Of a DNA stretch of 64,000 nt, positions 1,846-51,001 are shown one piece after another. A model generated the notes under the pieces. The model ran no database searches. It was not told the DNA's origin and saw nothing but the letters and a program-made list of their open reading frames with translations. The number at the start of each line of letters is the position of its first letter. Within the stretch, counting starts at the first letter, position 1. The stretch covers positions 46,435,228-46,499,227 of the forward strand of contig CM055901.1 in NCBI GenBank assembly GCA_029582155.1, given 5' to 3'. This DNA comes from Panopea generosa. Taxonomy: Eukaryota; Mollusca; Bivalvia; Adapedonta; Hiatellidae. The translations under genes were made by a program, and so were the position numbers.

Positions 1846-2265
1846 ACATATGCTGGAACTTCTTAATGTCGTTTTATTACTGCTTTACTTACGCATACGT
1901 CTAAGTTAAACACGTTTTTGATACATGTGTTGGTACTTTGGGTACCAGCTAGTTTGGGCACCATGTTACCAATATGCCTGCCACCAATGATCCTGGTGAC
2001 GATATACGGTTTATATGTGGATTTTCATTTACTATATTGTTTTATATGCACGTAGATAATAGGGCCGTTTAACATAGCCATACTCGTATGTGCACCAGGT
2101 TTTTATGTATTTTACGGTTACATATGAATTGTTTGTGTAACGCTTCTTGCCTGTTCATGAATGCCAATTGTAATGAATAAATTATTTCATTATAATAATA
2201 GAGACATGTCATATTTGTTGCCGCATTTGTCTTAACTGAGGTTGTATATGGTCATGAATGAACAA

Positions 2266-4612
2266 ATAAAGCACCCGCAGCCACGACAGCAGCAGTAGCA
2301 GCAACGTAGAGCAAAACAACAACAAAAATAAATCAAGCCGCCACGACAAAAGCAGTAACAGCAACGCAGAGCAAAGCAACAACGACAATAAACCAAGCAG
2401 CCACTACAGCAGCAGTAGCAGCAAAGCAGAGCAAAGCAACAACAAAAATAAAGCAAGCAGTCACAACGGCAGCAGTAGCACCAAAGCAGAGCAAAGCAAC
2501 AACAAAAAAAGCAAGCAGCTACGACAGCAGAAGTAGCAGCAAAGCAGGACAAAGCAACAATAAAAATAAAGCAAGCAGCCATGACGGCAGCAGAATCAGC
2601 AACGCAGAGCAACAACAACATAAAAGCAAGCAGCCACGACAAAAGCAGTAGCAACAAAGCAACAACAACAATAAAGCAAGCAGCCATGACTGCAGCAGTA
2701 GCAGCAAAGCAACAACAACAATGACGCAAGCAGCCACGACAGCAGCAGAAGCAGCAAAGTAGACAATAAAGCAAGCAGCCACGACGACAGCAGTAGCAGC
2801 AAAGCAGAGCAAAGCAACAACAAAAATAAAACAAGCAGTCACGACATCAGCAGTAGCAGCAAAGCAGAGCAAAGCAACAGCAACAATAAAGCAAGCAGTC
2901 ACGACAGCAGCAGTAGCAACAAAGCAGAACAAAGCAACAACAAAAATAAAATAAAGCAAGCAGCCACGACAGCAGCAGTAGCAGCAAAGCAGAGCAAAGC
3001 AACAACAAAAATATAGCAAGCAACCACGACAAAAGCAGTAGCAACAACGCAGAGCAAAGCAACAACAAAAAAAAATCAAGCATCCACGACAGCAGCAGCA
3101 GTAGCAGCAAAGCAGAGCAAAGCAACAACGACAATAAACCAAGCAGCCACTACATCAGCAGTAGCAGTAAAGCAACAACAAAAATAAAGCAAGCAGCCAT
3201 GACGGCAGCAGAAGCACCAACGCAGAGCAAAGCAACAACAAAAATAAAGCAAGTAGTCACGACAGCAGCAGTAGCAGCAAAATAGAGCAACAACAACAAA
3301 AAAAGCAAGCAACCACGACAGCAGCAGTAGCAGGAAAGCAGAGCAACAACAACAAAAAAGCAAGCAACGACGACAGCAGCAGTAGCAGCAAAACAGAGCA
3401 AAGCAACAATAAAGCAAGCAGCCACGACAGCAGTAGCAGCAAAGCAGAGCAACAACAACAAAAAAGCAAGCAACCACGACAGCAGCAGTAGCAGGAAAGC
3501 AGAGCAACAACAACAAAAAAGCAAGCAACCACGACAGCAGCAGTAGCAGCAAAACAGAGCAAAGCAACAATAAAGCAAGCAGCCACGACAGCAGCAGTAG
3601 CAGCAAAGCAGAGCAACAACAACAAATAAAGCAAGCAACGACGACAGCAGCAGTAGCAGCAAGCAGCCACGACAGCAACAGAAGCAGCTAGTAAGGAGCA
3701 AAGCAACAACAAAAATAAAGCAAGCAGCCACGACAGCAGCAGTAGCACCAAAGCAAAGCAAAGCAACGACAAAAATAAAGCAAGTAGGCACAACAGCAGC
3801 AGTAGTAGCAAAGCAACACTACAATGAAGCTAGCAGCCACGCCAGAGCAAAGCAACAACGACAATAAAGCAAGCAGCCTAGACAGCAGCAGTAGCAGCAA
3901 AGCAGAGCAAAGCAACAACAAAAATAAATCAAGCAGCCATAACAGCAGCAGTAGCAGAAAATCAGAGCAAAGCAAAGCAACAGCAACGATAAAACAAGCA
4001 GCCACGACGGCATCAGTAGCAGCAAAGCTACAGCAACGATAAAGCAAGCAGCAACGACAGCAGCAGTAGCAGCAAAGCAGAGCAACAATAACAAAAGAAC
4101 AAGCAGCCACGACAAAAGCAGTAGCAGAAAAGTAGACAATAAAGCAAGCAGCCATGACGGCAGCAGTAGCAGCAAAGCAGAACAAAGCAACAACAAAAAT
4201 AAAGCTAGAAATCACGACATCAGCAGTCAAAGCACAGCAAAGCAACAACAAAAATAAAGCAAGCAGCCACGACAGCAGCAGCAAAGCAACAACAAAAATA
4301 AAGCAAGCAGCCACGACGGCAGCAGTACCAGCAAAGCAGAGCAAAGCAACAACAAAAATAAAACAAGCAGCCACGACAGCAGCAGTAGCAGCAAAGCAAC
4401 ATAAAAAATAAAGCAAGTAGTCACGACAGCAGCAGTAGCAGCAAAGCATAGCAAAGCAACAGCAACAATAAAACAAGCAGCCACGACAGCAGCAGTAGCA
4501 GCAGTAGCAGCAAAGCAACAACGACAATAAAGCAAGCAGCAACGACAGCAGCAGTAGCAGCAAAGCAGAGCAAAGCAACAACAACAATAATGCAAGCAGC
4601 AAACAACAGTAG
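2266..4612. repeat. 60-bp CAG/CAA-rich minisatellite
   Basis: About 2.3 kb of imperfect tandem copies of a 60-bp unit of the form aagcaagcagccacgacagc / agcagtagcagcaaagcaga / gcaaagcaacaacaaaaata, with many internal deletions. The unit is a multiple of three and almost free of stops on the minus strand, so long Leu/Cys/Ala-rich frames appear there, and Lys/Gln/Ala/Thr frames on the plus strand. These frames are by-products of the repeat. Confidence 0.9.
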
Positions 4613-10789: not shown

Positions 10790-11183
10790 GGGAGCTAGAA
10801 GGGTCCACCGTGCACCCCCCCCCCCCCCCACAAACCTCCGAACCAATATTTTTCTGAAGCCCCATGACGCCCTGATCACACGAAAATAAATGTTAACATT
10901 GCGTAAGTTGGGACGAACTTACGGTTATGACGTCATCAAGATGGCCGCCATAGTGAAATTTACCCAAAATGTGAAAAATATCATCAAATCGTTATTTTTC
11001 GATCAAATTTAACAAATGAGGTATCAAAATGACCGCAATAGAATAACAAACAGATCTGTTAACAAAACAAACTACTATGAATAGATTCATTTCGAACAAA
11101 AATGAATTTATGTCGATTTTGAGGTCAAAATTTCAATTTTTCACAAAATAATTGTCATTTTTTTTTGTCAAATCTTTTCCAGA
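10790..11183 (+). repeat. Left terminal inverted repeat of the PIN-nuclease element
   Basis: Reverse complement of 16356-16763. It contains a poly(C) run near 10811-10827, TGACGTCA at 10928-10935 and AAGATGGCCGCCAT at 10938-10951. Confidence 0.9.
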
Positions 11184-11377
11184 AAGCAAACAACCTTAGT
11201 CATGATTCAGAAATGTTTTATTCACACTATTGAGCTGAATGACCACACGCTATTTTGCTCATATCCTGTGTATCACAACTGTTCAAATATCAACAGTCAT
11301 ATCAACAATAGTTGCCGTTTCTGTGTGTCTAAATATCTAACAAACACAGAGTTTATGTCATTCGAGGGTACATATTG

Positions 11378-11881
11378 TCAATCCAGATCACTGTCTGTGC
11401 TTTCACCACTGCTTTGTACACTAAACTGATCTAGCACATCTGTCAGCTGGTATACAGTTTCCGAGTCATCTGAATCCACATCGTCGTCAGACTGCAGTGG
11501 TTTGCCAGCGATGTCGACGAGCTCCTGTGGCAGAACATCTCCTGTGTACCACAGTCGCTCCAGCTTTCCATCCTTGACCTCCCATCCATGGTCAACCTTC
11601 ACATCTGGAATATCTGGTTCAGCAATGTGGGCCCTCTTCCAGATTCCAACCTGATAGTTGACACGTCTTACGTGCTGCTCCAGACTTCTTCTGCATGGTG
11701 GAAGTGATCCCAGGTCCACATTCTTTGAAGGGTGGGGTTGGTCTTCCTTGGCACACAGCTCCTGTATGCGGATGTATCGCAGCTCATTAACCTTGTGCAC
11801 TCTAGCACGACCATATATGGCACACGTGAATTCCTCCAGTTCATCAAGGAGGTCTTCGGTTATGTCCCAAGTTTCCTCCAA
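11378..11881 (-). pseudogene. C-terminal region of the PIN-nuclease element protein
   Basis: A 167-residue frame holding the segment downstream of the nuclease: ELRYIRIQELC, then LPPCRRSLEQHVRRVNYQ, IWKRAHIAEPDIPD, HGWEV, and an acidic Asp/Ser-rich tail ending at 11378. A 'HGW...W' segment near the C-terminus is a conserved feature of this family as I remember it. It lies in a different frame from the nuclease segment to its right, so the coding sequence is broken here. Confidence 0.7.
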
Positions 11882-12420
11882 CCTGCAGCAGCAAACTTTG
11901 GAGTTTTCTGGAGAGCTTTCAGTGGCTTGCTCTTTCCTATTCCTTTGAATGCGCTGGTAGTGTCACATCTAGTGTATGCATGGAGACACATGAGTGCTGT
12001 GCAGTGGTTCTGTGTATAGCCCTCTGCCAGTTCGGTGATGTCGATCAGTCGCTGCTTATTTCCAGTGCCAGTGTCAAATAGAATCACTACATTTGGCAAT
12101 GTGAGGGCGTAGTGCAGTAGGATGAAAAATACATCGCTGTCTCCACTTTTGGTCCGGATGTACTCGTATCCCTTGTCCTTTCCATACATGCAGTACAGAA
12201 CTACTCTGGAATCAGTTTCCTCTTGGGATGAGCGTAGAGTTTCGAACTCCGTCTTCGCTGTGCTTTGCCCATCTTCAGACGTCAGCTGGTATGCAGCTCC
12301 TTCACATATGATGATGACTTTTCTTCAAAGGAGCTTATTGGCATATGAATGATTCCTCCACGTCTTGCAGAGGAGATTGATGAATTGTGTCTTGTTGTCA
12401 TCATTTGTCAGGAACTGCTT
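11860..12420 (-). pseudogene. FEN1/XPG-like PIN nuclease segment of the element protein
   Basis: Read leftward from about 12420, the minus strand encodes KPPDWKQFLTNDDNKTQFIN, then an acidic stretch QEETDSRVVL (about 12200-12230), SGDSDVFFILLHYA, VVILFDTGTGNKQRLIDI, and HAYTRCDTTSAFKGIGKSK. In FEN1/XPG nucleases the E-x-D and D-x-D pairs bind metal and the 'CD-T-t-x-x-GIG' segment is the helix-two-turn-helix that holds DNA. The order and spacing fit this family well. The segment is spread over more than one frame: 11860-12189 is one clean frame of 109 residues starting MYGKDKGYEY. Assignment rests on motif reading only. Confidence 0.65.
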
Positions 12421-12445
12421 CCAATCAGGAGGTTTCTTGCCCCCT

Positions 12446-13216
12446 TTACAATGAGCGTCTCACTACAGCCCCTTCTCTCACGTTCCATGGATTTGACAGA
12501 ATTGGGAGTCTGAACACCGCATCTGTTGTCGTTGACATCATGCCTAAAATCCTGTTGCAGATCAAGCTGAAATTGGCTGGTATCTCCTTGAGGTAGTAGA
12601 AGTAGGCATTACCATCATAGACCACAAGTGTTGACTCAGCCGATGGAACTGGCGCATCCTCACACTCTTTGGTCAGATACTGGAAAGATTTAGATTTGTC
12701 TGTCTTTGTCAGAAATCCATCTGCTGTTCCAATGCTGTATGGGACAGGGGTCAGCGGGTACGTCATCAGCTCCTTCATGTCCAACTGCAAGCCCTGGCTT
12801 TGGGATTTCACAAATAGTTGGAAGGCAATATTGCCTTGTTGCTTATACTGGACCACTTTGTTGTTTGCCGTTGTTACTTTCATCTTCTTGTTCATGTCAC
12901 CAAGCGTTCTCAGATTCATCCGCTTTACTGGTTCAAAGAAGTTTTCATTCTTCTCCAGCCTGTCTTTTATGAAAGCTTTCTGTGCCTCTTTTCCTGACTT
13001 TTCTGCGGCCAAAACATCATTTGCTATAATCTCAGTGGCTGCAGCTCCAGATGAAAGACTGATAAGTTTGTCTTGGTCGTCAACTATAAATGGATTGATG
13101 AAGCTTTCAACTGCCTCATTTGCCTTTCGTACGCATTTCTCACTTTTCAGGATCTCTGCAGGTCGTACATCACGATGCATTGTTCCACTTTGGCTGTCTG
13201 TCAGCATGTCAGCCAT
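12446..13216 (-). pseudogene. Middle region with start of the PIN domain, element protein
   Basis: A 256-residue frame. It contains a helical charged region (SEKCVRKANEAVESFINPFI; AAEKSGKEAQKAFIKDRLEK), TPVPYSIGTADGFLTKTDKS, and LVVYDGNAYFYYLKEIP. The last has the 'hhhDG-a' pattern expected of the first strand of a PIN fold, with Asp as a metal ligand. It continues the same protein as its neighbours but in another frame. Confidence 0.65.
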
Positions 13217-13264
13217 GTTCAGTGTCGTGTTGACATACTGGGATCTCGCGTGTGTTGTTCGTAC

Positions 13265-14958
13265 CTATCTTTGGTATGCATCATGGTTGCTGAGAACCCC
13301 TGAAACACCAAAACCACCCCCACCAGCGCCACCATGAGATTTGGCATGTCTCATAAAGGTTTCCTTCATAGTTTTGTCGACGGCACAGCGGTTTCCGGGT
13401 ATGAAGGAACGAGCCACACTCATTGCTCCTCTCTTGATCAAATCAGTTGCTCCGGGATGAGATACCTCAATGTTAGCCAGAAAGATGGAGAAGTATGTGA
13501 GATATCGGGCGTAGCTCTGACCACCGAATGCAAAAAATATGTCTATCATGAGATGCAAACAGTGTGCATATGCAAGGAAGTCATTGTGCTTCACTGCCTG
13601 TACGAGAGAGAGTACTAGCCATATATGACTCATGTAGGAATCCCAAAGTTGGGCAGTTTTTCTGTGACTGCCTTCACTGACCTCCACTCTATACTGCAGG
13701 TAACCGTGGATGTAGTTACTGAATGCATCGTCATCTAATGCTGCGTTCAATTTGGTTTCTGTGAGCGATTGTAACAAATCATCCAACTTCTTCATCGAGT
13801 CTGCTGGGATGGAAGAGAACAGTTCCTGCTCATTTTGGTGAGCCATGTATTGTTCCAATAATAACCTTTCCAAGCACTCCAGCATGGTCTTATGGCTGTG
13901 CATCGCCCTGTCATAGTGCTTTCCGGATATCACACCTTGCAATGAACCAGAGGCAATCAGCCCTGCTTCAAGTAGGATGTCAGACAAACCAGAGCCATCC
14001 ATCTTCTTCCCCACCATCTTCAGATAAGCACACACGAGGTGGAAGGTACCAATCAAAACAATGTGCTTCTCATACCGTTTAGGGTTGTTCCAAAGCAATG
14101 GATATGTCTTCATGCAGACTCCCAAGTCGAAGGTTGTTATGACATACTGCTGGTTTACTTCATGTGTGGTCTCTTCAGCATATCTCAGACATTCTTGCAC
14201 AGTCTTATAATCGGTGATGGGTTGGGTGATGACTGGGTAATAGTCAATGGTGGCGAGATTTGTTGGTGGCATACCAGTTAAGGATGTGAAGCCTGTCCAA
14301 CCAGGTGCGTCCTGTGAGGCTGTACGCATCATGCGAATGAGAACCCAGACAAAATTGCGTCTCATGGCGCGTTTTAGGGCTTCTTCGCCTCCAGGGCATG
14401 TCAACTGTTGGATTGTGAGGGATGGACTCTTTCGTTGTGTTACATAGCATTCAGGAAGATTCCCGACTTGATCTGTTTTCAGAGAACGCGCTCCATTTCT
14501 GCTGACGGCCGGGATTTCAGGACGAGTACCCCCCTGTTGCTCTGGGTTTCCTTTGATGTCCTGCATCATAATACCATGAGCAGTGTGAATAGACCCATTG
14601 CCTGTCAGATCGTTCAAGAGCTGATCAAAGTTGTCAAATTCGGAATGAAACACCGATGGAGCATCAGAATCACGAACAATTTGGGTGGACAGAAAACTAC
14701 AGCCTGAGCAATAGCTGAGAAGGAGTAATTCTTTGAGTGCCCCATTCTGTTCAATAAGGTGATCAGTTGTTTGCTTCTGAACAGATGTCGCATTGTCATA
14801 CAGATAAGCACATGCTTTGGTAATTTCCATTCTCCATTGGTAGCGGCCCTGCATATGTCTTGGCCAATAGAAAGTACCAGCCTGTTGGCTCGTGACGTGT
14901 CAGCAGTTGGTGTCCCAGTGACAATACTTAAGAACTTCTTCAGCTGCAGTGGGAGCAC
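13265..14958 (-). pseudogene. Central helical region of the element protein
   Basis: Two overlapping frames (14614-14958 and 13265-14854) together cover the segment from LQLKKFLSIVTGTPTADTSR, through LPKHVLICMTMRHLFRSKQL, DAPSVFHSEFDNFDQLLNDL, HTAHGIMMQDI and a long helical stretch, to a Gly-rich KSHGGAGGGGFGVSG end. Each piece keeps good protein-like composition, so the break between the frames looks recent compared with the selection that shaped the sequence. Function of this region is unknown to me. Confidence 0.65.
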
Positions 14959-16121
14959 TCTTCACTGTTTTCTAAGTCTGTTGATGTTGGTGGCCATTTC
15001 AGCTCTGCCGATTGTTCAAAGCTACGCAGAATCAATTGGTGTAGGTGAGTGGCGGCATCCTTAATTATGTCAGTGGAACCTAGTGCATATACACTCTTGA
15101 CAGCACGGTTTACATCAATGTCCGAGCTGTATACAGTGCATGGTGTAAACTTTGTCTGCTTATCAAGTTGGCAGAATGATAATTTCCCACAATAGTTGAC
15201 ATCCTTCGCCAGCTTGACCTTCAGTTTCTCACTGCGATAGTTAGGATTGGCGAACTCCGTATCTTGCAGGCTCGAAATATAGACCTGAACAATCTCACAC
15301 ATTGTGACAATCTTTTTGTCACATATCACATCTTTGTCAATCTTCTCACACACATTCTGATACGCTGTCCTGTGTGCCAGTTCAAGCTTTTCCTGCTGTG
15401 TCCTCTTCTCGTCATCAGTACTTCTCCACTGCTTTGGGTCTGTAATGTACTTGGCTCTACAGCTCTTGTGAAATTGCACCTCGCATGCAAACAAATCATG
15501 TCCTCTTATTTTAGTTAAGAGTTGTTCATCGGATTTCTGCTCTGCTACTTCTAGAACTCTTCTCCAACCATCAAACTCAAACATATTGGTTCCTTCACTT
15601 GTCCAGTTACCCTTCACCTTGATTTTCTTGCACCCTTCGGAGTTACAAAATATACAATTGGGCTTGAAGATAGTGGTATCACTGTCATTTGAAGATCGCC
15701 GACTTGTTCTGGATGAACATGTTGCTTCCGGCGTATCTGGAGGAACCTCAAGGCGCTTAAGATTCATGGTGAACCTCTGATAACATTCACGATGATATCC
15801 ATCAGAGTCTGTATATGTTTCGGGAATGAGGTCACACACCTGTTGCATTCTATGTATAGAACCGAGTGGTTGGCAAAGTCTTCGGGATCGTACTTCTTTT
15901 ATTTTGTCCAGTGTTTTGTTGCAATCTTTCATGTTCGTGAATAACTGCAGTTGTCCACATTTTAATCCCTGAATATTGATAACACATCTTGGTTTCATAT
16001 GGGACGTTGATGCTTTACAACTTTCACCACGTCTTCTCTTTGACGGCGGGCCATCATCTTTTGGGGGATCCTGGGTATCAGAGGAACCTTGCATCACTGT
16101 CGTTGTATGTATTAGAACCAA
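14940..16121 (-). pseudogene. N-terminal region with NLS and Cys/His modules, element protein
   Basis: A 393-residue frame starting MVLIHTTTVMQG; an internal start at MQGSSDTQ is equally plausible. It has a basic nuclear-localisation-like PPSKRRRG (residues 25-32) and two modules ending in an H-x-x-C signature: DGYHRECYQRF, and CIFCNSEGCKK ... LFACEVQFHKSCRAKY. The second gives a C-x2-C ... C-x4-H-x2-C spacing that could bind zinc. As the most upstream part of the coding region it lies about 240 bp inside the right-hand terminal repeat, which would then carry the promoter. Confidence 0.7.
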
Positions 16122-16355
16122 TCACTATATGCTTGATATGTAACATACAAAAAATGCAATATTTAGAACAGATATTCCAGTGTGGTCATTTTGATTGCTT
16201 TTCTAACCAAATGAAACAAGAAAGCTAAGACTGTATTTCCTTTAGGTTTTATGATGGCGTCAGTCTTCATGAAGTTGTGATTGACCGCTCCTGAAAATTG
16301 TCATGAATCTGTGTTTTATGTTGATTGAATGGGGTTCGAAAAACTACTCTCAGGT

Positions 16356-16706
16356 ATGGAAGAAATTTGACCAAAAAATAATGACAATTATTTTGTGAAA
16401 ATATACAATTTTGACCTCAAAATCGATATAAATTCATTTTTTTAGAAATAAATATTTTTATAGTAGTTTGTTTTGTTAATAGATGTGTTTGTTATTCTAT
16501 TGCAGTCATTTTGATACCTCATTTGTTAAATTTGATCGGAAAATAACGATTTTATGATATTTTTCACATTTTGGGTAAAAATTTCACTATGGCAGCCATC
16601 TTGATGACGTCATAACCGGAAGTTCGTCCCAACTTACGCAATGTTAACATTGATTTTCGTGATCAGAGCGTCATGGGGCTTCAGAAAAATATTGGTTCGG
16701 AGGTTT

Positions 16707-16737
<31 letters not shown>

Positions 16738-16763
16738 GTGCACGGTGGACCCTTCTAGCTCCC
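16356..16763 (-). repeat. Right terminal inverted repeat of the PIN-nuclease element
   Basis: Reverse complement of 10790-11183 with scattered substitutions. It contains TGACGTCA at 16605-16612, ATGGCAGCCATCTTG at 16589-16603, a (GT)n-poly(G) run near 16706-16738 and the outer end ...GGTGGACCCTTCTAGCTCCC. Confidence 0.9.
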
Positions 16764-22515: not shown

Positions 22516-22657
22516 GTGCCGCTCAGTTTGTGAGTTACCACAGCAAAAAAGCAAGCTGATTCTGTTATCCACTTTCACCAGAGCTGTACGAGGGCTGGTC
22601 ATATCGTCCCAGAGTCAGACTCGCTTCATATATAAGACAATCCACACATCACGAATA
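22516..22657 (+). other. 5' part of UMP-CMP kinase exon: UTR or N-terminal extension
   Basis: A good acceptor (ttattttacag) ends at 22515. From there the kinase frame stays open to the ATG at 22658, reading ...KLILLSTFTRAVRGLV...TRFIYKTIHTSRI. No in-frame ATG lies in this stretch, so a longer form would need a start in an exon further upstream. The stretch is basic and Ser/Thr-rich with few acidic residues, like a mitochondrial presequence, and sits where human CMPK1 has its own N-terminal extension. It may equally be plain 5' UTR. Confidence 0.5.
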
Positions 22658-25600
22658 ATGGCTCTGTATAATGTTGTTTTTGTGCTTGGAGGACCAGGTG
22701 CTGGCAAGGGAACTCAGTGTGAAAAAATTGTAGAGGTAAATAATTATTGGCAAAGCTGTATAAAATATGAAACTTCTATAGTTCTACATCTGCAAAATGA
22801 AACAATCTGAAAATTCAAAATAAGGTATTATGTACTTACAAACTGCCTAGCCTTTTAAAACTGAAACCATTATCATGTATTTATATTGGTCAATTCAATT
22901 AACCACCAACTTTGAATTTACCTTTGAGGCTGCTGGCCATCATGTCAGTTCACTTGTAGTTTACTTGATTTGACATTGAACTTATGTGAAAATGTATATG
23001 AAAAACATAAGTCGTCATGCTAGGAAAATTGCGGTCGCTGTCCAACAAAGTTTTTAAATTGGTTTTTGTTTCAATAGTGTGTTTATACCACTTAAAAATA
23101 TTGATCAATGTTGCCATGACAACATTAACTGGAAGATTCCTTCAAGGATTATATACATTGTTTAACACTCTTCTAAAGTGGTTGTAGTGGTTTTGGTGAT
23201 GAACTGTTTAGATTAAGTTTCTATGTCTCCAGCATTAACATTTTGTTCTGTTTTTTATGGTTTAATTGCAAATACATACATTAAGAAACACTCTGTGGTC
23301 ACTTCTTATTTCTACCTTAGTATTGTTATAGTAATTTATATTCATTTATGATTTATGAATCTTTTTTTGCAGAAGTATGGTTATATACATCTGAGTGCAG
23401 GTGATTTGTTGCGAGAAGAAAGACAGCGAGCAGGATCAGAGTATGGGGAAGAAATTGAGAGTCATATAACAAATGGAAGCATTGTACCAGTAAAAATAAC
23501 CTGCTCATTGCTACGGAGGGTAACAATTGTTATTTTTAGCATACTGGAGTCTAAAACTCCAGCTATGCTTTTATGATTAACCTTTCTGTCATGAGCAGCT
23601 GATGGCCGACAGGTTAATCACAAAAACTTTGTAAACAGCTCCAATAAACAGTTTTAACCATTACTACATATACTAGAGTTTAAATATGTGATAACATAGA
23701 TCAGTGGTCCCTAACTAAAATGTGTACATTGTGACCATAGGGTCATATTTTTACTTGCTCTGAGGTGTCAAACATCCTATTTTATAACTTAAAAATATTG
23801 ATCATGGAGGACGTAAAAGCAATAAAAGAAAAGAAATGGAGTGTGTAATAGCTCAAACTTGTGAAGTACTTTAATCAGCTATAAATACACTTTATTTTAT
23901 TTTCAGGCCATGGAACAGAGTGGTAAATCAAAATTTCTGATTGACGGATTTCCGAGAAACAAAGACAATCTAGATGGCTGGAATGAGGCTATGAATGAAG
24001 TAGCAGATGTTAAGATGGTTTTGTTTTTTGATTGCCCAGATGATGTGAGTGAAATAAAATCAACATAGACAACCATATGATATTTTATTAAGTTTCCGGC
24101 GAACCTCAATAACGGTTATGGGGTATTATGTACTTACTCTGTCCATGTATATATGATACAGCTTAGTTAGTTCAGCAATTTATTATATATCACATTCCCA
24201 TGAATAAATGTCCATGAAAGATTGGGACTATGCATTATTCGAAAGGGGAACATTTATATAAGTAGAAGAGTTTAACAAACAATATTGTGTATGATAATTG
24301 TTTCACAAGCAAATTCCTGTTTTCATTGTGAACGCTTTGAATCTTTTTTAAAAAATTGGTTGAGGGGGTTTATTTTTTGGCCCAACCCAAATCCAACATA
24401 ACATGATCATTATTAGTATAAAAGGTTAGACAAATTGTGAAAAAATAAAACAACATCGCTGAAACCACTTACTCAGCTTTGTTGGCCAACTATAAGATTT
24501 GTGTTTTTTGAAGCCACTCCAAATGTAGTATGGTTTAAACATCTCATATGAATCAATGCGCATGATCGGATCAGTATTGAGTCCACATGATCATGTTTGT
24601 GTTTGTATAGATCAAACAATGTCAATATAAGAGGCCAATGTGTGCAGTCAAACCTGTCTTAAGCAGCCACTCTCGGTCAAGACAAGATGCAATGGTGGCA
24701 TTTTAAGACAGATTGTTGCTTAGTACAGGTTAATTTGCTCTGAAAGCATAGAAAATGGCAAATGTGGCTGCTTAAGACATGTGGCTGCTCAATATAGGTG
24801 ACTGTTTTGACACAGGTTTGACTGTACATGGCGGCCATCCTCGGCACTGAGTTTACTTTTATCTATTCTCACATATGATTGGCAAATCCATATTTAGTTG
24901 AAAATAGTTGTAATGTATATGTTATATCTACATAAAAAATCAATGACTATTTTTCAATGTTCCAATCACAAGGTAAAAATAGACACTGGTCATCATCAAA
25001 AAATTTATTGTGAAAATCGTTTCTGTCTGTATTGCCAAAACAACCAAACACTCGCATGTGTTAGAAGATGAATATCATGTATTCTTTAAATGTCCCAGAT
25101 ACTCTGATTTATGTCATTTCCTTCTGTTTTCTTGGTACTCTGGTGAAACTGATCTATTAAATGTTTACAATATTCTACAACTGGATGACACTTATAAAAT
25201 AAGAAAAATCTCCTATAACCTTTATGATCTGTTAAGAAGAAATGAGTTCCAAATATATCATGTATAACTTTTTATTTAACTCGTAGTTTTATGTAAATAG
25301 TAATACAGTCAAACCTGTGTTAGTGGTCACCTCTATTAAGCAACCACTTGTCTTAAACAGCCGCATGATACAGTCAAACCTGTATTAAGCAGCCACCTGC
25401 TTAAGGCGCCATTTTTGCTCTTTCCCTTGAGTGGCTGTTTAAGATGGGGTTGACTGTATATTTTGGGCCAGGAGGCCTTTGTTTAGGATATAAAACATTG
25501 AATCTTGATCTATGCTAAAGTCATTAATTGATAACTAATTAAATGACCAATTGACCGCTAGAACTTTAGTTTAACACCTGATCTCATCATCTCTATTTTA

Positions 25601-32031: not shown

Positions 32032-32345
32032 TTGTTGTTGTATGGTGTTTAGCGTCGCTTTCAACAATTTTTCAGTCATATCGCGACGGTGTCTACTTGA
32101 GACAGTATTTTAAGCGCTGTCACACTGGAGTATCATGCCGCAGACACATGGTATGATACCCCACCAAGTCACATTATATTGACACCGGACCGACCAGACC
32201 TAGAACTCTCCTCTAAATGCTGAGCGTCAAACGAGGAAGCTTCTTGTACCATTTTTAAAGTCTTTCGTATGACCCGGCCGGGGATTGAACCCACGACCTT
32301 CCGCATGCAAGGCGGACGCTCTACCACTAGACCACGCCGTGGTCT
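32032..32345 (-). repeat. tRNA-derived SINE with 11-bp target duplication
   Basis: The minus-strand head (32345 leftward) reads GACCACGGCGTGGTCTAGTG / GTAGAGCGTCCGCCTTGCAT and has a B box GTGGGTTCAATCCCC, tRNA-Ala-like (TGC in the loop). The tail is 'gctaaacaccatacaacaac'. It is flanked by CTTGCATTTAG at 32021-32031 and 32346-32356. The tRNA-like part is therefore a SINE head and not a free tRNA gene. Confidence 0.9.
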
Positions 32346-33215: not shown

Positions 33216-33800
33216 CTGGTATACAAAGCCATATGTCATGGAACCATCGCACGTGACAAAGTCATTAGTCCTGGTATACAAAACCATATGTCATGGAACC
33301 ATCACACGTGACAATGTCATTAGTCCTGGTATACAAAGCCATATGTCATGGAACCATCACACGTGACAACGTCATTAGTCCTGGTATACAAAGCCATATG
33401 TCATGGAACCATCACATGTGACAACGTCATTAGTCCTGGTATACAAAGCTATATGTCATGGAACCATCACGCGCCTCAAAGCCGTAAGTCCTGGAATACA
33501 AAGCCGTATGTCATGGAACCATCACATGTGACAACGTCATTAGTCCTGGTATACAAAGCCATATGTCATGGAACCATCACACGTGACAACGCCGTTAGTC
33601 CTGGTAAACAAAGCCGTATGCCATGGAACCATGTTTCATGTGACAACGTCATTAGTCCTGGTATACAAAGCCGTATGTCATGGAACCATCACACGTGACA
33701 ACGCCGTTAGTCCTGGTAAACAAAGCCGTATGCCATGGAACCATGTTTCATGTGACAACGCCGTTAGTCCTGGTATACAAAGCCGTATAGTGTGGAACCA
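33216..33800 (+). repeat. 55-bp minisatellite, left part of the E-box array
   Basis: About ten copies of a 55-bp unit (CATGGAACCATCACACGTGA / CAACGTCATTAGTCCTGGTA / TACAAAGCCATATGT). It is the 75-bp unit to the right minus about 20 bases (the 'attatacaaggcaaatcaag' segment). Confidence 0.92.
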
Positions 33801-36800
33801 TCACATGTGACAATCCCCATTATACAAGGTAAATCAAGTCAGTCCTGGTATACAAAGCCGTTTGTCATGGAACCATCACACGTGACAATCCCCATTATAC
33901 AAGGCAAATCAAGTCAGTTCTTGTATACAAAGTCGTATGTCATGTAACCATCACACATGACTAACCCATTATACAAGGCAATTCAAGTCAGTCCTGGTAT
34001 ACAAAGTCGTATGTCATGAAACAATCACACGTGACTACCACTTTAAACAAGGCCAATCAAGTCAGTCCTGGTATACAAAGTCGTATGTCATGGAACAATC
34101 ACACGTGACTACCACATTAAACAAGGCCAATCAAGTCAGTCAGGTATACAAAGTCGTATGTCATGGAACTATCACATGTGACAATCCTCATTATACAAGG
34201 CAAATCAAGTCAGTCCTGGTATACAAAGTCGTATGTCATGTAACCATCACATGTGACAATCCCCATTATACAAGGCAAATCAAGTCAGTTCTTGTATACA
34301 AAGTCGTATGTCATGTAACCATCACACATGACTACCCCATTATACAAGGCAATTCAAGTCAGTCCTGGTATACAAAGTCGTATGTCATGGAACAATCACA
34401 CGTGACTACCACATTAAACAAGGCCAATCAAGTCAGTCCTGGTATACAAAGTCGTATGTCATGGAACTATCACATGTGACAATCCTCATTATACAAGGCA
34501 AATCAAGTCAGTCCTGGTATACAAAGTCGTATGTCATGTAACCATCACATGTGACAATCCCCATTATACAAGGCAAATCAAGTCAGTTCTTGTATACAAA
34601 GTCGTATGTCATGTAACCATCACACATGACTACCCCATTATACAAGGCAATTCAAGTCAGTCCTGGTATACAAAGTCGTATGTCATGGAACAATCACACG
34701 TGACTTCAACATTAAACAAGGCCAATCAAGTCAGTCCTGGTATACAAAGTCGTATGTCATGGAACAATCACACGTGACTACCACATTAAACAAGGCCAAT
34801 CAAGTCAGTCCTGGTATACAAAGTCGTATGTCATGGAACTATCACATGTGACAATCCTCATTATACAAGGCAAATCAAGTCAGTCCTGGTACACAAGGCC
34901 TTATGTCATGGAACCATCACACGTGACAGTCCCCATTATACAAGGCAAATCAAGTCAGTCCTGGTACACAAGGCCTTATGTCATGGAACCATCACACGTG
35001 ACAATCCCCATTATACAAGGCAAATCAAGTCAGTCCTGGTACACAAGGCCTTATGTCATGGAACCATCACACGTGACAATCCCATTATACAATGCAAATC
35101 AAGTCAGTCCTGGTACACAAGGCCTTATGTCATGGAACCATCACACGTGACAATCCCCATTATACAAGGCAAATCAAGTCAGTCCTGGTATACAAGGCCG
35201 TATGTCATGGAACCATCACACGTGATCATCCCCATTATACAAGGCAGATCAAGTCAGTTCTGGTACACAAGGCTTTATGTCATGGAACCATCACACATGA
35301 CAATCCCATTATACAAGGCAAATCAAGTCAGTCCTGGTATACAAAGCCTTATGTCATGGAACCATCACATGTGATAATCCCCATTATACAAGGTAAATCA
35401 AGTCAGTCCTGGTATACAAAGCCATATGTTATGGAACCATCACATGTGATAATCCCCATTATACAAGGTAAATCAAGTCAGTCCTGGTATACAAAGCCTT
35501 ATGTCATGGAACCATCACACATGACAATCCCATTATACAAGGCAAATCAAGTCAGTCCTGGTATACAAAACCGTTTGTCATGGAACCATCACACGTAATA
35601 ATCCCCATTATACAAGGTAAATCAAGTCAGTCCTGGTATACAAGGCCGTATGTCATGGAACCATCACATGTGATAATCCCCATTATACAAGGCAAATCAA
35701 GTCAGTCCTTGTATACAAGGCCGTATGTCATGGAACCATCACATGTGATAATCCCCATTATACAAGGTAAATCAAGTCAGTCCTGGTATACAAGGCCTTA
35801 TGTCATGGAACCATCACACGTGATAATCCCCATTATACAAGGCAAATCAAGTCAGTCCTGGTATACAAAGCCATATGTTATGGAACCATCACACGTGACA
35901 ATCCCAATTATACAAGGCAAATCAAGGCAGTCCTGGTATACAAAGCCTTATGTCATGGAACCATCACATGTGACAATCCCCATTATACAAGGTAAATCAA
36001 GTCAGTCCTGGTATACAAAGCCTTATGTCATGGAACCATCACATTTGATGATCCGCATTATACAAGGTAAATCAAGTCAGTCCTTGTATACAAAGCCGTT
36101 TGTCATGGAACCATCACACGTGATAATCCCCATTATACAAGGCCAATCAAGTCAGTCCTGGTATACAAAGCCTTATGTCATGGAACCATCACATGTGATA
36201 ATCCCAATTATACAAGGTAAATCAAGTCAGTCCTTGTATACAAAGCCGTTTGTCATGGAACCATCACACGTGATAATCCCCATAATACAAGGTAAATCAA
36301 GTCAGTCCTGGTATACAAGGCCGTATGTCATGAAACCATCACATGTGATAATCCCCATTATACAAGGCAAATCAAGTCAGTCCTGGTATACAAAGCCTTA
36401 TGTCATGGAACCATCACACATGATAATCCCCATTATACAAGGCAAATCAAGTCAGTCCTGGTATACAAAGCCGTATGTTATGGAACCATCACATGTGATA
36501 ATCCCCATTATACAAGGCAAATCAAGTCAGTCCTGGTATACAAAGCCTTATGTCATGGAACCATCACATGTGATAATCCCCATTATACAAGGTAAATCAA
36601 GTCAGTCCTGGTATACAAAGCCGTTTGTCATGGAACCATCACACGTGATAATCCCCATTATACAAGGTAAATCAAGTCGGTCATGGTATACAAAGCCGTT
36701 TGTCATGGAACCATCACACGTGATAATCCCCATTATAAAAGGCAAATCAAGTCAGTCCTGGTATACAAAGCCTTATGTCATGGAACCATCACGCGTGACA

Positions 36801-39780
36801 ATCCCCATTATACAAGGCAAATCAAGTCAGTCCTGGTATACAAAACCGTTTGTCATGGAACCATCACACGTGATAATCCCCATTATACAAGGTAAATCAA
36901 GTCAGTCCTGGTATACAAGGCCGTATGTCATGGAACCATCACAAGTGATACTCCCCATTATTCAAGGCAAATCAAGTCAGTCCTGGTATACAAAGCCTTA
37001 TGTCATGGAACCATCACATGTGATAATCCCCATTATACAAGGCAAATCAAGTCAGTCCTGGTATACAAAACCGTTTGTCATGGAACCATCACACGTGATA
37101 ATCCCCATTATACAAGGTAAATCAAGTCAGTCCTGGTATACAAAGCCGTTTGTCATGGAACCATCACACGTGATAATCCCCATTATAAAAGGCAAATCAA
37201 GTCAGTCCTGGTATACAAAGCCTTATGTCATGGAACCATCACGCGTGACAATCCCCATTATACAAGGCAAATCAAGTCAGTCCTGGTATACAAAACCGTT
37301 TGTCATGGAACCATCACACGTGATAATCCCCATTATACAAGGTAAATCAAGTCAGTCCTGGTATACAAGGCCGTATGTCATGGAACCATCACAAGTGATA
37401 CTCCCCATTATACAAGGCAAATCAAGTCAGTCCTGGTATACAAAGCCTTATGTCATGGAACCATCACATGTGATAATCCCCATTATACAAGGCAAATCAA
37501 GTCAGTCCTGGTATACAAAACCGTTTGTCATGGAACCATCACACGTGATAATCCCCATTATACAAGGTAAATCAAGTCAGTCCTGGTATACAACACCGTT
37601 TGTCATGGAACCATCACACGTGATAATCCCGATTATACAAGGTAAATCAAGTCAGTCCTGGTATACAAGGCCGTATGTCATGGAACCATCACAAGTGATA
37701 ATCCCCATTATACAAGGCAAATCAAGTCAGTCCTGATATACAAAGCCTTATGTCATGGAACCATCACACGTGATAATCCCCATTATACAAGGCAAATCAA
37801 GTCAGTCCTGGTATACAAAGCCGTATGTTATGGAACCATCACACGTGACAATCCCCGTTATACAAGGCAAATCAAGTCAGTCCTGGTATACAAAGCCGTT
37901 TGTCATGGAACCATCACACGTGACAATCCCCGTTATACAAGGCAAATCAAGTCAGTCCTGGTATACAAAGCCTTATGTCATGGAACCATCACACGTGATA
38001 ATCCCAATTATACAAGGCACATCAAGTCAGTCCTGGTATACAAAGCCGTTTGTTATGGAACCATCACACGTGACAATCCCATTATACAAGGTAAATCAAG
38101 TCAGTCCTGGTATACAAAGCCTTATATCATGGAACCATCACATCTGATTATCCCCATTATACAAGGTAAATCAAGTCAGTCCTGGTATACAATGCCTTAT
38201 GTCATGGAACCATCACACGTGACAATCCCATTATACAAGGCAAATCAAGTCAGTCCTGGTATACAAGGCCTTATGTCATGGAACCATCACACGTGATAAT
38301 CCCCATTATACAAGGCAAATCAAGTCAGTCCTGGTAAACAAAGCCTGATGTCATGGAACCATCACACTTGATAATCCCCATTATACAAGGCAAATCAAGT
38401 CAGTCCTGGTATACAAGGCCGTATGTCATGAAACCATCACACGTGACAACCCCATTATACAAGGCATATCAAGTCAGTCCTGGTATACAAGGCCGTATAT
38501 AATGGAACCATCACATGTGATAATCCCCATTATACAAGGCAAATCAAGTCAGTCCTGGTATACAAAGCCGTATGTCATGGAACCATCACATGTAATAATC
38601 CCAATATATATACAAGGCAAATCAAGTCAGTCCTGGTATACAAGGCCGCATGTCATGGAACCATCACACGTTGCAATCCCCATTATACAAGGCAAATCAA
38701 GTCAGTCCTTGCACACAAAGCCGTATGTCATGGAACCATCACACGTGACCATCCCCATTGTACAAGTCAGTCTTGGTATACAAAGCCGTATGTCATGGAA
38801 CCATCACATGTGACAACGCCGTTATACAAGGCAAATCAAGGCAGTCCTGGTATACAAAGCCTTATATCGTGGAACCGTCACACGTGACATTCCCCATTAT
38901 AAAAGACAAATCAAGTCAGTCCTGGTATACAAGGCCGTATGTCATGGAACCATCACACGTGACAATCCCAATTACACAAGGCAAATCAAGTCAGTCCTGG
39001 TATACAAGGCCTTATGTCATGGAACCATCACACGTGACAATCCCAATATATATACATACAAGGCAAATCAAGTCAGTCCTGGTATACAAAGCCGTATGTC
39101 ATGGCAAATCAAGTCAGTCCTGGTATACAAGGCCTTATGTGATGGAACCATCACCCGTGACAATCGCAATATATATACAAGGCAAATCAAGTCGGTCCTG
39201 GTATACAAAGCCATATGTCATGGCAAATCAAGTCTGTCCTGGCATACAAGGCCTTATGTCATGGAACCATCACATGTGATAATCCCAATTATACAAGGCA
39301 AATCAAGTCAGTTCTGGTATTCAAGGCCTTATGTCATGGAACCATCACACGTGACAATCCCATTATACAATGCAAATCAAGTCAGTCCTGGTATACAAAG
39401 CCGTATGTCATGGAACCATCACACGTGACAATCCCAATATATATATATAGAAGGCAAATCAAGTCAGTCCTGATATACAAAGCCGTATGTCATGGAACCA
39501 TCACACGTGACAATCCCAATATATATATATAGAAGGCAAATCAAGTCAGTTCTGGTATACAAGGCCTTATGTAATGGAACCATCACATGTGACAATCCCA
39601 ATATATATATATAGAAGGCAAATCAAGTCAGTCCTGATATACAAAGCCGTATGTCATGGAACCATCACACGTGACAATCCCAATATATATACAAGGCAAA
39701 TCAAGTCAGTCCTGGTATACAAGGCCGTATGTGATGGAACCAGCACGTGACAATCCCAATAAATATACAAGGCTATCACT
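33801..39780 (+). repeat. 75-bp minisatellite with an E-box in most units
   Basis: About eighty tandem copies of a 74-75 bp unit containing ATGGAACCATCACACGTGA, TAATCCCCATTATACAAGGC, AAATCAAGTCAGTCCTGGTA and TACAAAGCCGTATGTC. CACGTG or CATGTG occurs once in most units. A 450-bp (six-unit) higher-order duplication is visible: the variant 'cattataaaaggc' recurs at 36731 and 37181. Between 35580 and 37736 the unit is exactly 25 codons and free of stops, giving a 718-codon frame of MEPSHVIIPIIQGKSSQSWY units. Toward the right end TA-microsatellites appear inside units (39030-39630). Confidence 0.95.
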
Positions 39781-42768: not shown

Positions 42769-42985
42769 AAAAAAAAAAAGATTTATTTTTATACCATTTT
42801 TATTTATCATTTAAGCAATTTACTTGTATCAAAACAGTCTGACGATGTAAAAGAAAGAAAAAACATTATGACATAGGACATATATAACTTATATATGTGT
42901 ATTATAAGAATATCAATGTACATGGTAGTTAGGAACCATTAGCTGGTGCCCAACAGCATCGGCTGAGTAAACTACATAATAATTA

Positions 42986-43258
42986 TGGTTTCATTTTTAT
43001 GCCATCGAGGGTAGACGGATGATCAGTTGACTTTACCACTCTTTCCTGTGATTCTGGGGGGTTAACCAGTTTTCGAGAATACCTATCTCCACAAGTAACT
43101 GATAACACTTTACTTGACAGCGGTGAGCGACGAATGACAATGTGACGCAATGTCGTACACCAATCATCATGGAGACTGTGGCCGGGTGAGGATTTGAACT
43201 CACCACCCGGCCAAGATTAATAGTCATACGTACTACCGACTGAGCAAACCGGTCCCGG
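42986..43258 (-). repeat. Main SINE family, minus strand, inside copy A
   Basis: Head at the right (ccgggaccggtttgctcagt on the minus strand) and tail at the left (atgccataaaaatgaaacca). Present at the same place in copies B and C, so it entered before the copies separated. Confidence 0.8.
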
Positions 43259-43849
43259 ATTAACGAAAAGAAGTATTGTCAAATCAACCAATCGATGAAT
43301 TGGGTGGGGTTAGCGGTTAACAATACACAATATATGAAACTACCCAGGAGGAATATTCCCAGCCCTTCTTAACTCGGCAACAAAACTGCTGTTCCTTACG
43401 CATTAATATACACACTAAAAAAATACACCAACAAAAGAATAAGCAGAATGAAATTAGAACTTTGATACCTGCAGAACAGCAGAGTTTTAGAACAAATATT
43501 CTATGCGTGCCTCTTACGAAATATCAAACAAAGAAAAAGGTCGTTATAGCCAACGTCTTTGTAAAGAAAAAAAAAATATAGTTGTTTGTGTGTATTTCTT
43601 ATGATGTCCTTGGTATTGGCGTGCATTTCATGGCCTGTTTACATGTGTGTGTTGCTATAGTTTCTTTTATCATTGTTATTATATCGTTCATGCATCACGT
43701 TGTCATGCTTTGTATACATGTACGGTTATTACCGTAATAGAAATATCTATCTATCTGCCGTGTGTTTGAATGAAATTTGGTTTATAGAAATATTTAGAAA
43801 ATTTGTAAGTTGTATGTACATGTAGATAGACGATGGTTCTAAACCGAAT

Positions 43850-45800
43850 CGTTCTGAGAATTTCCTAGTTCTATTCGGAGTCATTCTGAGGACTTCCTTG
43901 TTCTATTCAGAGTCATTCTGAGGACTTCCTAGTTCTATTCAGAGTCATTCTGAGGACTTCCTAGTTCTATTCGGAGTCATTCTGAGGACTTCCTAGTTCT
44001 ACTCGGATTCATTATGAGGACTTCGTACTTCTACCCGATTCATTCTGAGGATTCCTATTACTATTCAGGGTCATTCTAAGGACTTCCTTGTTCTATTCGG
44101 AACCATTCTGAGAAATTCCTTGTTCTATTCAGATCCATTCTGAGGACTTCCCAGTTCTATTCGGATTCATTTTGAGGACTTCCTAGTTCTACACGGATTC
44201 ATTCTGAGGACTTCCTAGTTCTATTCGGATTCATTCTGAGGACTTCCCAGTACTATTCAGATTCATTCTGAGTACTTTCAAGTTCTATTCGGATTCATTC
44301 TGATGACTTCCCAGTTCTATTCTGATTCATTCTGATGACTTTCCAGTTGTATTCGGATTCATTCTGAGGACTTCCTAGTTCTACTCATATTCATTCTGAG
44401 AACTACCTATATCTTTTCAAATTCTTTCTGAGGCTTTCCCATTTCTACTCGGATTCATTATCAGGACTTCCCAGTTCTATTCGGATCCATTCTGAGGACT
44501 TCCTAGTTCTATTCGAATTCATTCTGAGGACTTCATAGATCTTTTCGGATTCATTCTGAGGACTTCCTAGTTATACTCGAATTCATTCTGAGGACTTCAT
44601 AGTTCTAATCAGGTTCATTCTGAGGACTTCCTAGTTCTATTCAGGTTCATTCTGAGGACTTTCTAGTTCTATTCGTATTCATTCTGAGGACTTCCTATTT
44701 CTATTTGGATTCATTCTGAGGAATTTCTAGTTGTACTCGGATTCATTCTGAGGACTTTCTAGTTCTATTCAGATTCATTCTGAGGACTTCATAGTTCTAT
44801 TCGGATCCATTCTGAGGACTTTCTAGTTCTATTCGGAGTAATTCTGAGGACTTCCTTGTTCTATTCGGATTCATTCTCAGGACTTTGTAGTTCTACTCGA
44901 ATTCATTCTGATGACTTCCCAGTTCTTTTTGGATTCATTCTGAATACTTCATAGTTCTACTCGGATTCATTCTGTGGACTTCATAATTTTATTCGGATTC
45001 ATTCTGAGGATTTCCTTGTTCTTTTCATATTCATTCTGAGGACTATCTTGTTCTATTACTCGTATTTATTCTGAGGACTTTCTAGTTCTATTCGGAAACA
45101 TTCTGAGGACGTTTTAGTTCTAGTCGGATTCATTCTGAGGACTTCATAGTTCTACTCAGATTTATTCTGAGGGCTTCATAATTCTATTCGGATGCATTCT
45201 GAGGACTTCTTTGTTCTTTTCATATTCATTCTGAGGACTTCCTAGTTCTATTACTCGTATTCATTTTTAGGACTTCCTAGTTCTATTCGGAACCATTCTG
45301 AGGACTTTTTAGTTCTACTCGGAAGTATTCTGAGGACTTTCTTGTTCTAGTCGGATTCATTTTGAGGACTTTCTAGTTCTATTCGGAGTCATTCTGATGA
45401 CTTCCTAATTCTGCTAGGATTCATTCTGAGGACTTCCTAGTTCTATTCGGATTCATTCTGAGGACTTCTAAGTTTTATTCAGGTTCATTATGAGGACTTC
45501 CTAGTTCTATTCGGATACATTCTGAGGACTTCCTAGTTCTTTTCGGATACATTCTAAGGATTTCATAGTTCTGTTCGAATTCATTCTGAGGACTTCCTTG
45601 TTCTATTCAGATCCATTCTGAGGACATCATAGTTCTATTCAGATCCATTCTGAGGAATTCTTATTTCTATTCGGATTCATTCTGAAAACATTCTAGTTCT
45701 ATTTGGATTCATTCTGAGAACTTCCTAGTTCTATTCAGATTCATTCTGAGGACGTCCTAGTTCTACTCGTATTCATTCTGAGAACTTCCTAGTTCTACAT
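43850..45800 (+). repeat. 32-bp satellite array, copy A
   Basis: About sixty tandem monomers of 32 bp: TTCATTCTGAGGACTTCCTA plus GTTCTATTCGGA. Because 32 is not a multiple of three, all three frames alternate through the array; occasional open frames have no meaning. Confidence 0.95.
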
Positions 45801-45882
45801 GGACACATGGCAAAGTTCATGTTCAATCTTTACACATGCATACGGATAACCACAGGCAGAGTATTAATGTTCAATTAAGCTA

Positions 45883-46230
45883 GACCGCGGCGGTGGTCTA
45901 GTGGTAGAGTGTCCCCCTCGATTGTGTTCATATAGGTTTGTTCCCCGGCAGGGTCTTACCAATGATTGGAATAAATGTTACAAGAAGGCTTCCGCGCTTT
46001 GCGCACATCATTTAGAGGATAGTTCTAATTGTGGTCGCAAAAGTTCAGCGAGATACTTTACGTGCACTTGCTATGACTATCCTTGTACATGGAACCGACT
46101 GCTTTAAGTCCCCTTATACAGTACAATGCCGGACTAAGGCACTGTGGGAGTGCGTTTGAAACCCTATCCCCCATCCCCCGGACGAAACCCCTCCGAGAAT
46201 CGATCCAGAACTTCCGGGTCTTGGAAAATG
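45883..46230 (+). repeat. SINE-like segment with tRNA-derived head, copy A
   Basis: Head gaccgcggcggtggtctagt followed by ggtagagtgtcc, B-box-like ggtttgttccccggc, then a conserved body (cttccgcgctttgcgcacat; cccggacgaaacccctccga). The matching copy in B is 55876-56225. The head resembles that of the SINE at 32032. Confidence 0.6.
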
Positions 46231-46606
46231 GTTGTTAACCAATAAAGCATCGCAACTCCTCATTGCCCCTACTGTTCAAGGGCAGCATGAAGTGGCCTTT
46301 TATAAAACTTACTTTGAGAAACGGTGGGCTAAGTTTATTGACTTGTTTGTTAAAGGGCACCATGAGCAATGACACATGATCGGAATTGTGTTCAAAACTT
46401 ATTGACTTTCCCTCATATGAATTAACTATAATATGTGTGTAATATAAACATATATTAGACACGTTCTCAGTAACATGTTTAATGTTAATGGTTATAGGGA
46501 ACAGCCCTGTTTAAACACAAGTCAGTTATATCTGAATAGAACGTAACGACTGTTATCCACAAGTTACTTGCAAACTGTCTCGCATAAAGTTTTGGGATTA
46601 AACAGG

Positions 46607-46805
46607 GTCTGGCCCCGGTTTCACTAAACATCTCAACCTAAAATTTTCATAAACTCAGATTTTTTATGCTATTTACATTGATACTTATTTATGTTATCTT
46701 TTACCATTGAGACAAGATTGATCAGATTTGTGATTTAGAAAAATTGATAATTTTGAGTTCAGGAAATTCTGAGCTTGAGATGTTCAGTAGAACTGGGCCC
46801 AGGTA
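46607..46805. mobile_element. MITE inside composite copy A
   Basis: Ends pair: ccccggtttcactaaacatc at the left and gatgttcagtagaactgggc at the right; about 200 bp, no coding capacity. Also in copy B at 56610-56816. Confidence 0.7.
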
Positions 46806-46984
46806 CCCGAACCCACCGGCGACTTCAGCGGCGAGATGTAATTGGCCATGTGGCGGCAGTGTATTAGAAAACTCGGCCACTTGGGACCCTCATATAAAGC
46901 TACAGGTTTGCTCAGGGGGTCAGAAAACGGCCCGGTGCTAGTATGATGTTTGTCACTCGTGTCGTGAACACTTTTAAGGGGGCA

Positions 46985-47212
46985 TACGGCAATGTTAATA
47001 TTAACTTCGAGTTGACGTATCAAACCGATGTTAACAGTCATGCACGTTTAACCATATGGAAATGTTAGTATTGACTTCGAGTTGACGTATCAAACCGATC
47101 TTAACTCATGGACGTTTAACCATATGGAAATGTTAATATTGACTTCGAGTTGACGCATCAAACCGACCTTAACACTCATGCACGTTTAACCATATGGAAA
47201 TCTTAACCTACG
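46985..47212. repeat. ~67-70-bp tandem repeat, three copies
   Basis: Unit with 'gacttcgagttgacgtatca', 'aaccgatcttaac' and 'cacgtttaaccatatggaaa', repeated three times. The same three-copy block lies at 57003-57225. Confidence 0.85.
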
Positions 47213-47294
47213 TTATAATATCTTATCATCATATTTAACGAAGTATGATCAGTTATCATAGAGGTGAACGGGACATAATTTGACATGTTCAGCA

Positions 47295-47512
47295 TATTAC
47301 AGGTTATGCGATATATGACATATCAAATTTTATTGGTGGAGGAAGATCTCAAAGTAAATGTGACTAAAGCCACTGTCCTTCCGCAAGTAACTGGTAAACG
47401 TCCTCACATAGCGTTGTTGGATCAATATGGGGTCGAACCTATGACTTCAGCGGTGAGAGGTTAGTGAGCTTTAGACAACATCGTGAACCATTCGGTCGCG
47501 GAGAACAGAATT
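47295..47512 (-). repeat. tRNA-derived SINE-like segment, minus strand, copy A
   Basis: On the minus strand: ctccgcgaccgaatggttca (A-box region), cataggttcgaccccatatt (B-box) and a tail containing cctccaccaataaaatttga. Also at 57315-57532. Confidence 0.55.
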
Positions 47513-48729
47513 TTATTCAATATCCCTTAAATATATACAGTTTATCGTTTTACATCGTATAACGAAGTTATTTGTGCTCGAACTTACAGAGAAAAATAAT
47601 TGTTACATGTATTCCATTTACACAAAAATATGAAACATCAGTCTGATAAATGTTGTTTATCAATAAGTTATTCTGATCATACTGAATATGCAGGCATAGT
47701 GTTCATATAATATTTCAAGAATGAAGCCCGACATTTAGTGGTAAAAGAGCTTTATTTCTTTGTTTTTTCCTGAGCGAATCGACCACGTTTTGAAAATATA
47801 CAATATATTAAAATACTGTTCCTTTAATATATGCCTATTATGTTTAATGCATCTATTTGTATATATGGCTTGTCAATGCCACTTTATAAATGCATTTCAC
47901 AAATCACAAAATCAATGTCTGTTGTTTGTTTGAAACGTCGTGTTACCTTTAATCATGCAGGTGTGCATTTGTGTTGTTGTTAGACATTGTTTTTTAAAAT
48001 TTGGGTATCCAACTGCATCATCTTTGGGTGGGCTATAGAGTGGCGGATAGTTGCCCACCTTTTGCTGTGGGAATGTTTGATTTAATTACAGAAATGTATT
48101 CTTGAAATTTTCTAACTAGTCATGTTATGTAAGAATGTTAGTTAAATAGTCATGTATATAACATTCTACGCGCATTATTATATAAAGTAATCCATCATAT
48201 ATTACATTATAGTCATTTTATGGTACAATAAAATGACATGTTCGCATAACATGGTATTTGTGTATCTTTCGATGCCCATTTGCAAAACAAGCTGCATATT
48301 GATGTGGTTGGATACTTAACGTCTCACACACCGATTTATATGTGCTGTTCTACAAATAGAGACATGCACATCTGGAACACTGGATACATTACCAATGGTT
48401 CTAAAAATGCGTTATTCCCATAGATAGTCCTTTGTTGGTCTAAATATGGAGAAAAAACATGGGTTTGACCAGGTTGCTTTTTCACAATTTCGATGGTTTG
48501 ATGGCACCCCTACATTTTTGACAATTCTGTCCATTTGTTGCAGTGTATCACTACGCATCTTTAAACTGTTATAGCATCATCAAACAGTTCCCAATGTCAC
48601 CCAAACTTTGCAGAAATCGTGAAAATGTTCTAATGTTCCCATATGCACAAAGAAATATCACATTTTATGCATTTTTAACAAAAAAAAAATTGCCCAACCG
48701 CTTTACACAGCTCTAATTTCTTTGGCGTA
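47513..48729. other. 3' block of composite copy A, no gene
   Basis: AT-rich unique-looking part of the composite repeat. Bases 47860-48725 match 58635-59515 as reverse complement. No frame supported. Confidence 0.6.
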
Positions 48730-50728: not shown

Positions 50729-51001
50729 GGTTTCATTTTTATGCCATCGAGGGTAGACGGATGATCAGTTGACTTTACCACTCTTTCCTGTGATTCTGGG
50801 AGGTTAACCAGTTTTCGAGAATACCTATCTCCGCAAGTAACTGATAACTCTTTACTTGACAGCGGTGAGAGACGAATGACAATGTGACGCAATGTCGTAC
50901 ACCAATCATCATGGAGACTGTGGCCGGGTGAGGATTTGAACTCACCACCCGGCCAAGATTAATAGTCATACGTACTACCGACTGAGCAAACCGGTCCCGG
51001 A
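50729..51001 (-). repeat. Main SINE family, minus strand, inside copy B
   Basis: Equivalent of 42986-43258 with a handful of substitutions. Confidence 0.8.

Follow-up and report, generated by a model that had tools for sequence, protein, structure and literature searches.

The locus lies in a window of 64,000 nucleotides from contig CM055901.1 of Panopea generosa, i.e. the whole stretch of DNA that was analysed, and consists of a unit of 5974 bp (positions 10790-16763) which is bounded by long inverted ends and occupied by the remains of a gene (Table 1). When the element was compared with the window by BLAST, 10790-11181 aligned to 16763-16357 on the opposite strand (410 columns, 89.5% identical, E 2e-155). 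The search also returned the reciprocal of this pair (423 columns, 88.7% identical), and ungapped pieces of the same terminal inverted repeats (TIRs) were recovered as well. In the BLAST alignment, the outermost letters common to both TIRs are GGGAGCTAGAAGGGTCCACCGTGCACCCC. A 21-base TIR piece, searched with up to 3 mismatches, matched only at 10798 (plus strand) and 16735 (minus strand), compared with a mean of 0.00 matches in 100 shuffles. The preliminary description of this DNA had given the same coordinates and inverted ends of ~400 bp, both of which proved to be right (392 and 407 bp by BLAST).

Analysis of the minus strand between the TIRs revealed stop-to-stop ORFs of 393, 544, 272, 154 and 194 codons. 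The longest ORF found among 200 mononucleotide shuffles of the element had 204 codons (the mean of the longest was 121), so that the ORFs of 393, 544 and 272 codons exceeded every shuffle, whereas those of 194 and 154 codons did not. We read the five ORFs as one broken gene, which can be traced through five frame changes (near 14945, 14730, 12513, 12455 and 11882) and two in-frame stops (TAG at 13265-13267 and TGA at 12325-12327). The sequence itself makes the order of the pieces clear; we placed the exact joins by our own reading, aided by family motifs. The inverted ends and the broken minus-strand frames together bear out the earlier view of a TIR-bounded unit carrying one decayed gene.

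Table 1. Features of the 5974-bp unit (positions in the window).
Feature	Position	Strand	Basis or remark
Left TIR, 392 bp	10790-11181	+	Starts with GGGAGCTAGAAGGGTCCACC; poly-C stretch close to the end
AGCT, candidate for the left copy of a 4-bp target duplication	10793-10796		By eye; a palindrome that could just as well belong to the TIR
C-terminal segment, to the stop codon of the gene	11378-11881	-	ORFs, read-through
FEN1/XPG-like motif region; contains one TGA and shifts of frame near 12513, 12455 and 11882	11860-12515	-	Motifs
CDTTSAFKGIGK	11967-11932	-	Motif
DSD	12141-12133	-	Motif
EETD	from 12222 downwards	-	Motif
Linker and start of the nuclease-like region, with DGNAYFYY from 12616 downwards	12446-13264	-	ORFs, read-through
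Central segment, which switches frame near 14730 and runs to the in-frame TAG	13265-14961	-	DUF6589 match
Cys/His-rich N-terminal segment (384 codons, counted from a presumed ATG)	14943-16094	-	Pfam best E 0.16
Right TIR, 407 bp	16357-16763	-	Poly-G and TG stretches close to the end
AGCT, candidate for the right copy of a 4-bp target duplication	16757-16760		By eye

Pfam scans were performed with the five ORFs (E up to 1) and with three read-through pieces, N-terminal, central and C-terminal (E up to 10); the latter omit most of 13264-12650, a stretch that was covered by the ORF scan alone. In neither set was any named transposase, helicase, XPG or zinc-finger family matched. The only match of note across the gene was DUF6589 (PF20231), which covers residues 275-522 of the 544-residue central ORF (13265-14899) at E 2.7e-5 and 23.5 bits, i.e. 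below the curated cut-off of 27; the likeness of the element to this family is thus a weak one. The other rows (DUF5768, Syntrophin_4th and Enterochelin_N) had E values of 0.098 to 0.17 and scores far below the cut-off. Of the 383 residues of the N-terminal segment, 21 are Cys and 9 are His, with two HxxC and two CxxC pieces among them. This agrees with the Cys/His-rich gene start noted previously, although no Pfam zinc-finger family matched the segment in the ORF scan (E up to 1) or in the read-through scan (E up to 10).

Comparison of the centre with PDB sequences yielded 13 weak rows and nothing relevant (the best was Cullin-3, E 0.033), and the NCBIfam search gave one chance-level row (E 0.073). 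The fold of the central ORF predicted by AlphaFold without an alignment was unusable (mean pLDDT 34.1), and no DDD/E triad was identified in the central region in the sequence matches and this single-sequence fold. The statement that the centre matches no known transposase therefore held for Pfam, NCBIfam and PDB sequences, where the sub-threshold match to the unnamed DUF6589 was all that appeared; in the literature searched, we found no mention of DUF6589. The central segment is presumed to be the place of the DDD/E transposase.

In the C-terminal region, EETD, DSD and CDTTSAFKGIG follow one another in the order and with the spacing observed in FEN1, in which the corresponding motifs, located by pattern, start at 158, 179 and 233. 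The catalytic residues of FEN1 are E158/E160, D179/D181 and D233. When shuffles of the region (20,000) and of the complete read-through protein (5,000) were screened, the joint pattern (E..E/D, DxD and D-x6-GIG) turned up in 1 and 1, DxD plus D-x6-G[ILV]G in 9 and 32, and D-x6-GIG alone in 41 and 84, respectively. These frequencies are too favourable because the patterns were set after both sequences had been seen. Local alignment of the region with human FEN1 gave a score of 44, compared with a shuffle mean of 46.5 (607 of 1000 shuffles equalled or exceeded it), and other parts of the same protein outscored the region against FEN1 (68 for 560 residues, 50 for 383 and 53 for 205). The best local FEN1 alignment sets GYTQNHCTALMCLHAYTRCDTTSAFKGIGK on a 28-residue stretch of FEN1. 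The hhalign comparison with FEN1 did no better than chance either (49 of 100 shuffles), and searches of PDB sequences with the nuclease region returned two rows and one row, with nothing relevant among them (best E 0.56). The fold of the nuclease segment predicted by AlphaFold without an alignment was unusable (mean pLDDT 33.7). The motif-based assignment of the region as a FEN/XPG-like nuclease is graded as probable, because the order of the motifs is rare in shuffles but the FEN1 alignment is at chance level. Of the FEN1/XPG-like domain recognized in the preliminary description, the three motifs in their order were retained, while a significant FEN1 alignment or a Pfam XPG match was not obtained. 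The region thus resembles FEN1/XPG nucleases in the order and spacing of its acidic motifs and in D-x6-GIG, but differs from them in showing neither significant overall sequence similarity nor a match to the Pfam XPG family.

The flanks of the unit were inspected by eye for target-site duplications. With AGAAGGG...CCCTTCT as the ends, AGCT is present on both sides, and CTAG is a further candidate. Both of these tetranucleotides are palindromes within the conserved end, and would therefore look repeated whether or not a duplication had occurred. At the outer GGG...CCC boundary no duplication was seen by eye (the left flank reads ...AAGCT and the right flank GGACT...). A 4-bp AGCT target duplication is therefore possible, and ambiguous.

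BLAST (E 1e-3) detected no second copy of the element in the window. In viral contigs, one stretch fitted the pattern of the central ORF and one that of the nuclease ORF, neither of which was confirmed by tblastn; in prokaryote genomes, six stretches fitted the central-ORF pattern, and tblastn confirmed none of them. The degenerate pattern CDTTSAF-x-G-x-GK was found 0 times in viral and prokaryote contigs, and the terminal 24-mer 0 times in viral contigs. FEN1-pattern scans of viral contigs for nuclease relatives, carried out for profile building, gave 0 each, and tblastn of the central ORF against phages (E up to 1) produced no match. This lack of viral and prokaryotic relatives is as expected for a eukaryotic element.

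The features described above were compared with those of the Academ superfamily. The nuclease of the lineage AcademX is of the XPG type, and the lineage is said to go back to Kapitonov and Jurka in 2010 and to Kojima in 2020. The available part of one source (PMC10045372) describes AcademX as encoding a nuclease and making target duplications of 3-4 bp, and AcademH, also an Academ lineage, as encoding a helicase and making duplications of 9-10 bp; another (PMC9587614) counts Academ as one of the superfamilies that use a DDD/E transposase. According to the portion available of a mollusc study with a curated, bivalve-centred library (PMC10294476), Academ is nearly limited to bivalves and is represented there by 100 elements with a mean length of 5565 bp, compared with 5974 bp for the unit described here. 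In the text available from PMC10799480, PMC4455052, PMC9783078, PMC12210899 and PMC8290104, Academ or AcademH is named, with nothing on its nuclease. PMC8290104 also mentions an Academ profile by Muszewska et al. (2017).

The element shares with AcademX its TIR-bounded structure, a single gene, a probable nuclease (by motif), a size of 5-6 kb and, possibly, a duplication of 4 bp. No difference from AcademX was shown in this comparison, which set a decayed element beside the lineage by architecture. AcademH belongs to the same superfamily; unlike AcademH, the element gave no helicase match in Pfam, either with its five ORFs (E up to 1) or with the three read-through pieces (E up to 10). Membership in AcademH was rejected on this ground; the lack of a helicase match is what one would expect of the X lineage, not of H.

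We consider that the unit is probably (at roughly 77%) derived from an autonomous DNA transposon belonging to the AcademX lineage of the Academ superfamily, and that it is an old copy which is no longer active. Its placement in Academ rests on architecture, namely the TIRs, the single gene, the size, the nuclease-like motifs and the lack of a helicase match. Most likely the unit is nothing new in kind, but a decayed copy added to a superfamily that has already been described. The preliminary description had suggested an unclassified kind of DNA transposon. We do not retain this suggestion, since a nuclease-carrying DDD/E lineage, AcademX, is in print, and the size, the single-gene layout and the nuclease motifs of the unit fit it.

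Transposition of an intact AcademX copy of this kind may be envisaged as follows. The encoded protein, a single large one, would attach to the long inverted ends, and a DDD/E (RNase H-fold) transposase, presumably of this type and presumably situated in the centre, would cut them. The element would then be pasted into a new site with a duplication of 3-4 bp, the Academ literature making cut-and-paste the most likely mode. The C-terminal FEN/XPG-like nuclease may trim flaps or process the ends.

It is unlikely, though still worth considering, that the unit comes from a different DDD/E superfamily, or from a sister of Academ still to be named, in which a FEN/XPG-like nuclease is encoded. Such an origin would be consistent with the profile results for the centre, where nothing but the unnamed DUF6589 stood out, and this below the cut-off, and with the lack, by eye, of a 3-4 bp duplication at the outer boundary; against it, the set of DDD/E transposase plus nuclease and the size have already been described for Academ (in the available parts of the sources), and none of the Pfam models for other transposase families was matched. 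An unnamed lineage, in which the DUF6589-like centre would not be the Academ DDD/E transposase and the FEN/XPG-like nuclease would work together with a mobilising domain of a new type, appears improbable.

The preliminary description had also proposed that the nuclease or the central region could be the mobilising enzyme, if other copies shared these ends. This step was found to be unsupported, given that the published AcademX enzyme set explains the unit. In its stricter form, in which the nuclease itself mobilises the unit without a DDD/E transposase, the proposal has a very small probability. No DDD/E motif was demonstrated in the element, and no catalytic motifs other than those of the nuclease are recognizable, as this reading would have it; yet a central ORF of 544 codons, which is larger than the nuclease region, is not explained by a nuclease, and long TIRs around one gene, together with the published AcademX enzymes, suffice without a new mechanism. 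A host or domesticated nuclease gene with inverted repeats around it by chance would accord with the presence of only one copy within the window. The gene, however, takes up the interval between the repeats, with five frame changes and two stops in it, and inverted ends of ~400 bp with 89.5% identity suggest a transposon. The host-gene reading was rejected on account of the broken frames and the TIRs, and we regard it as highly improbable.

The weak match of DUF6589 to a probable transposon protein suggests that DUF6589 may be a transposon-derived family. There is also a hint that proteins annotated as "uncharacterized" and carrying CDTTSAF...GIGK motifs are perhaps transposon proteins.

Several other features were observed in the window. 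An imperfect AGC/CAA-rich tandem array with units of ~60 bp (42 copies, 73% matches) occupies 2277-4600, and the AT skew is 0.66 in 2001-4000. An ORF piece at 22586-22807, which includes a 24-residue piece, gave a weak match to adenylate kinase (E 5.9e-5; 23.7 bits, cut-off 26.8), and is probably an exon of a host gene. A gene for tRNA-Ala(TGC) is located on the minus strand at 32271-32342. At 33766-39757 there is a large tandem array of a 75-bp unit, with 71 copies up to 39104 (91% matches) and rows of longer period reaching 39757; open frames of up to 754 codons within it probably reflect the repetition alone. Finally, a duplicated unit holding 32-bp satellite arrays is present at 42772-47748, 50404-57764 and 61401-64000, its direct copies showing 87% identity and its inverted copy 82-86%.
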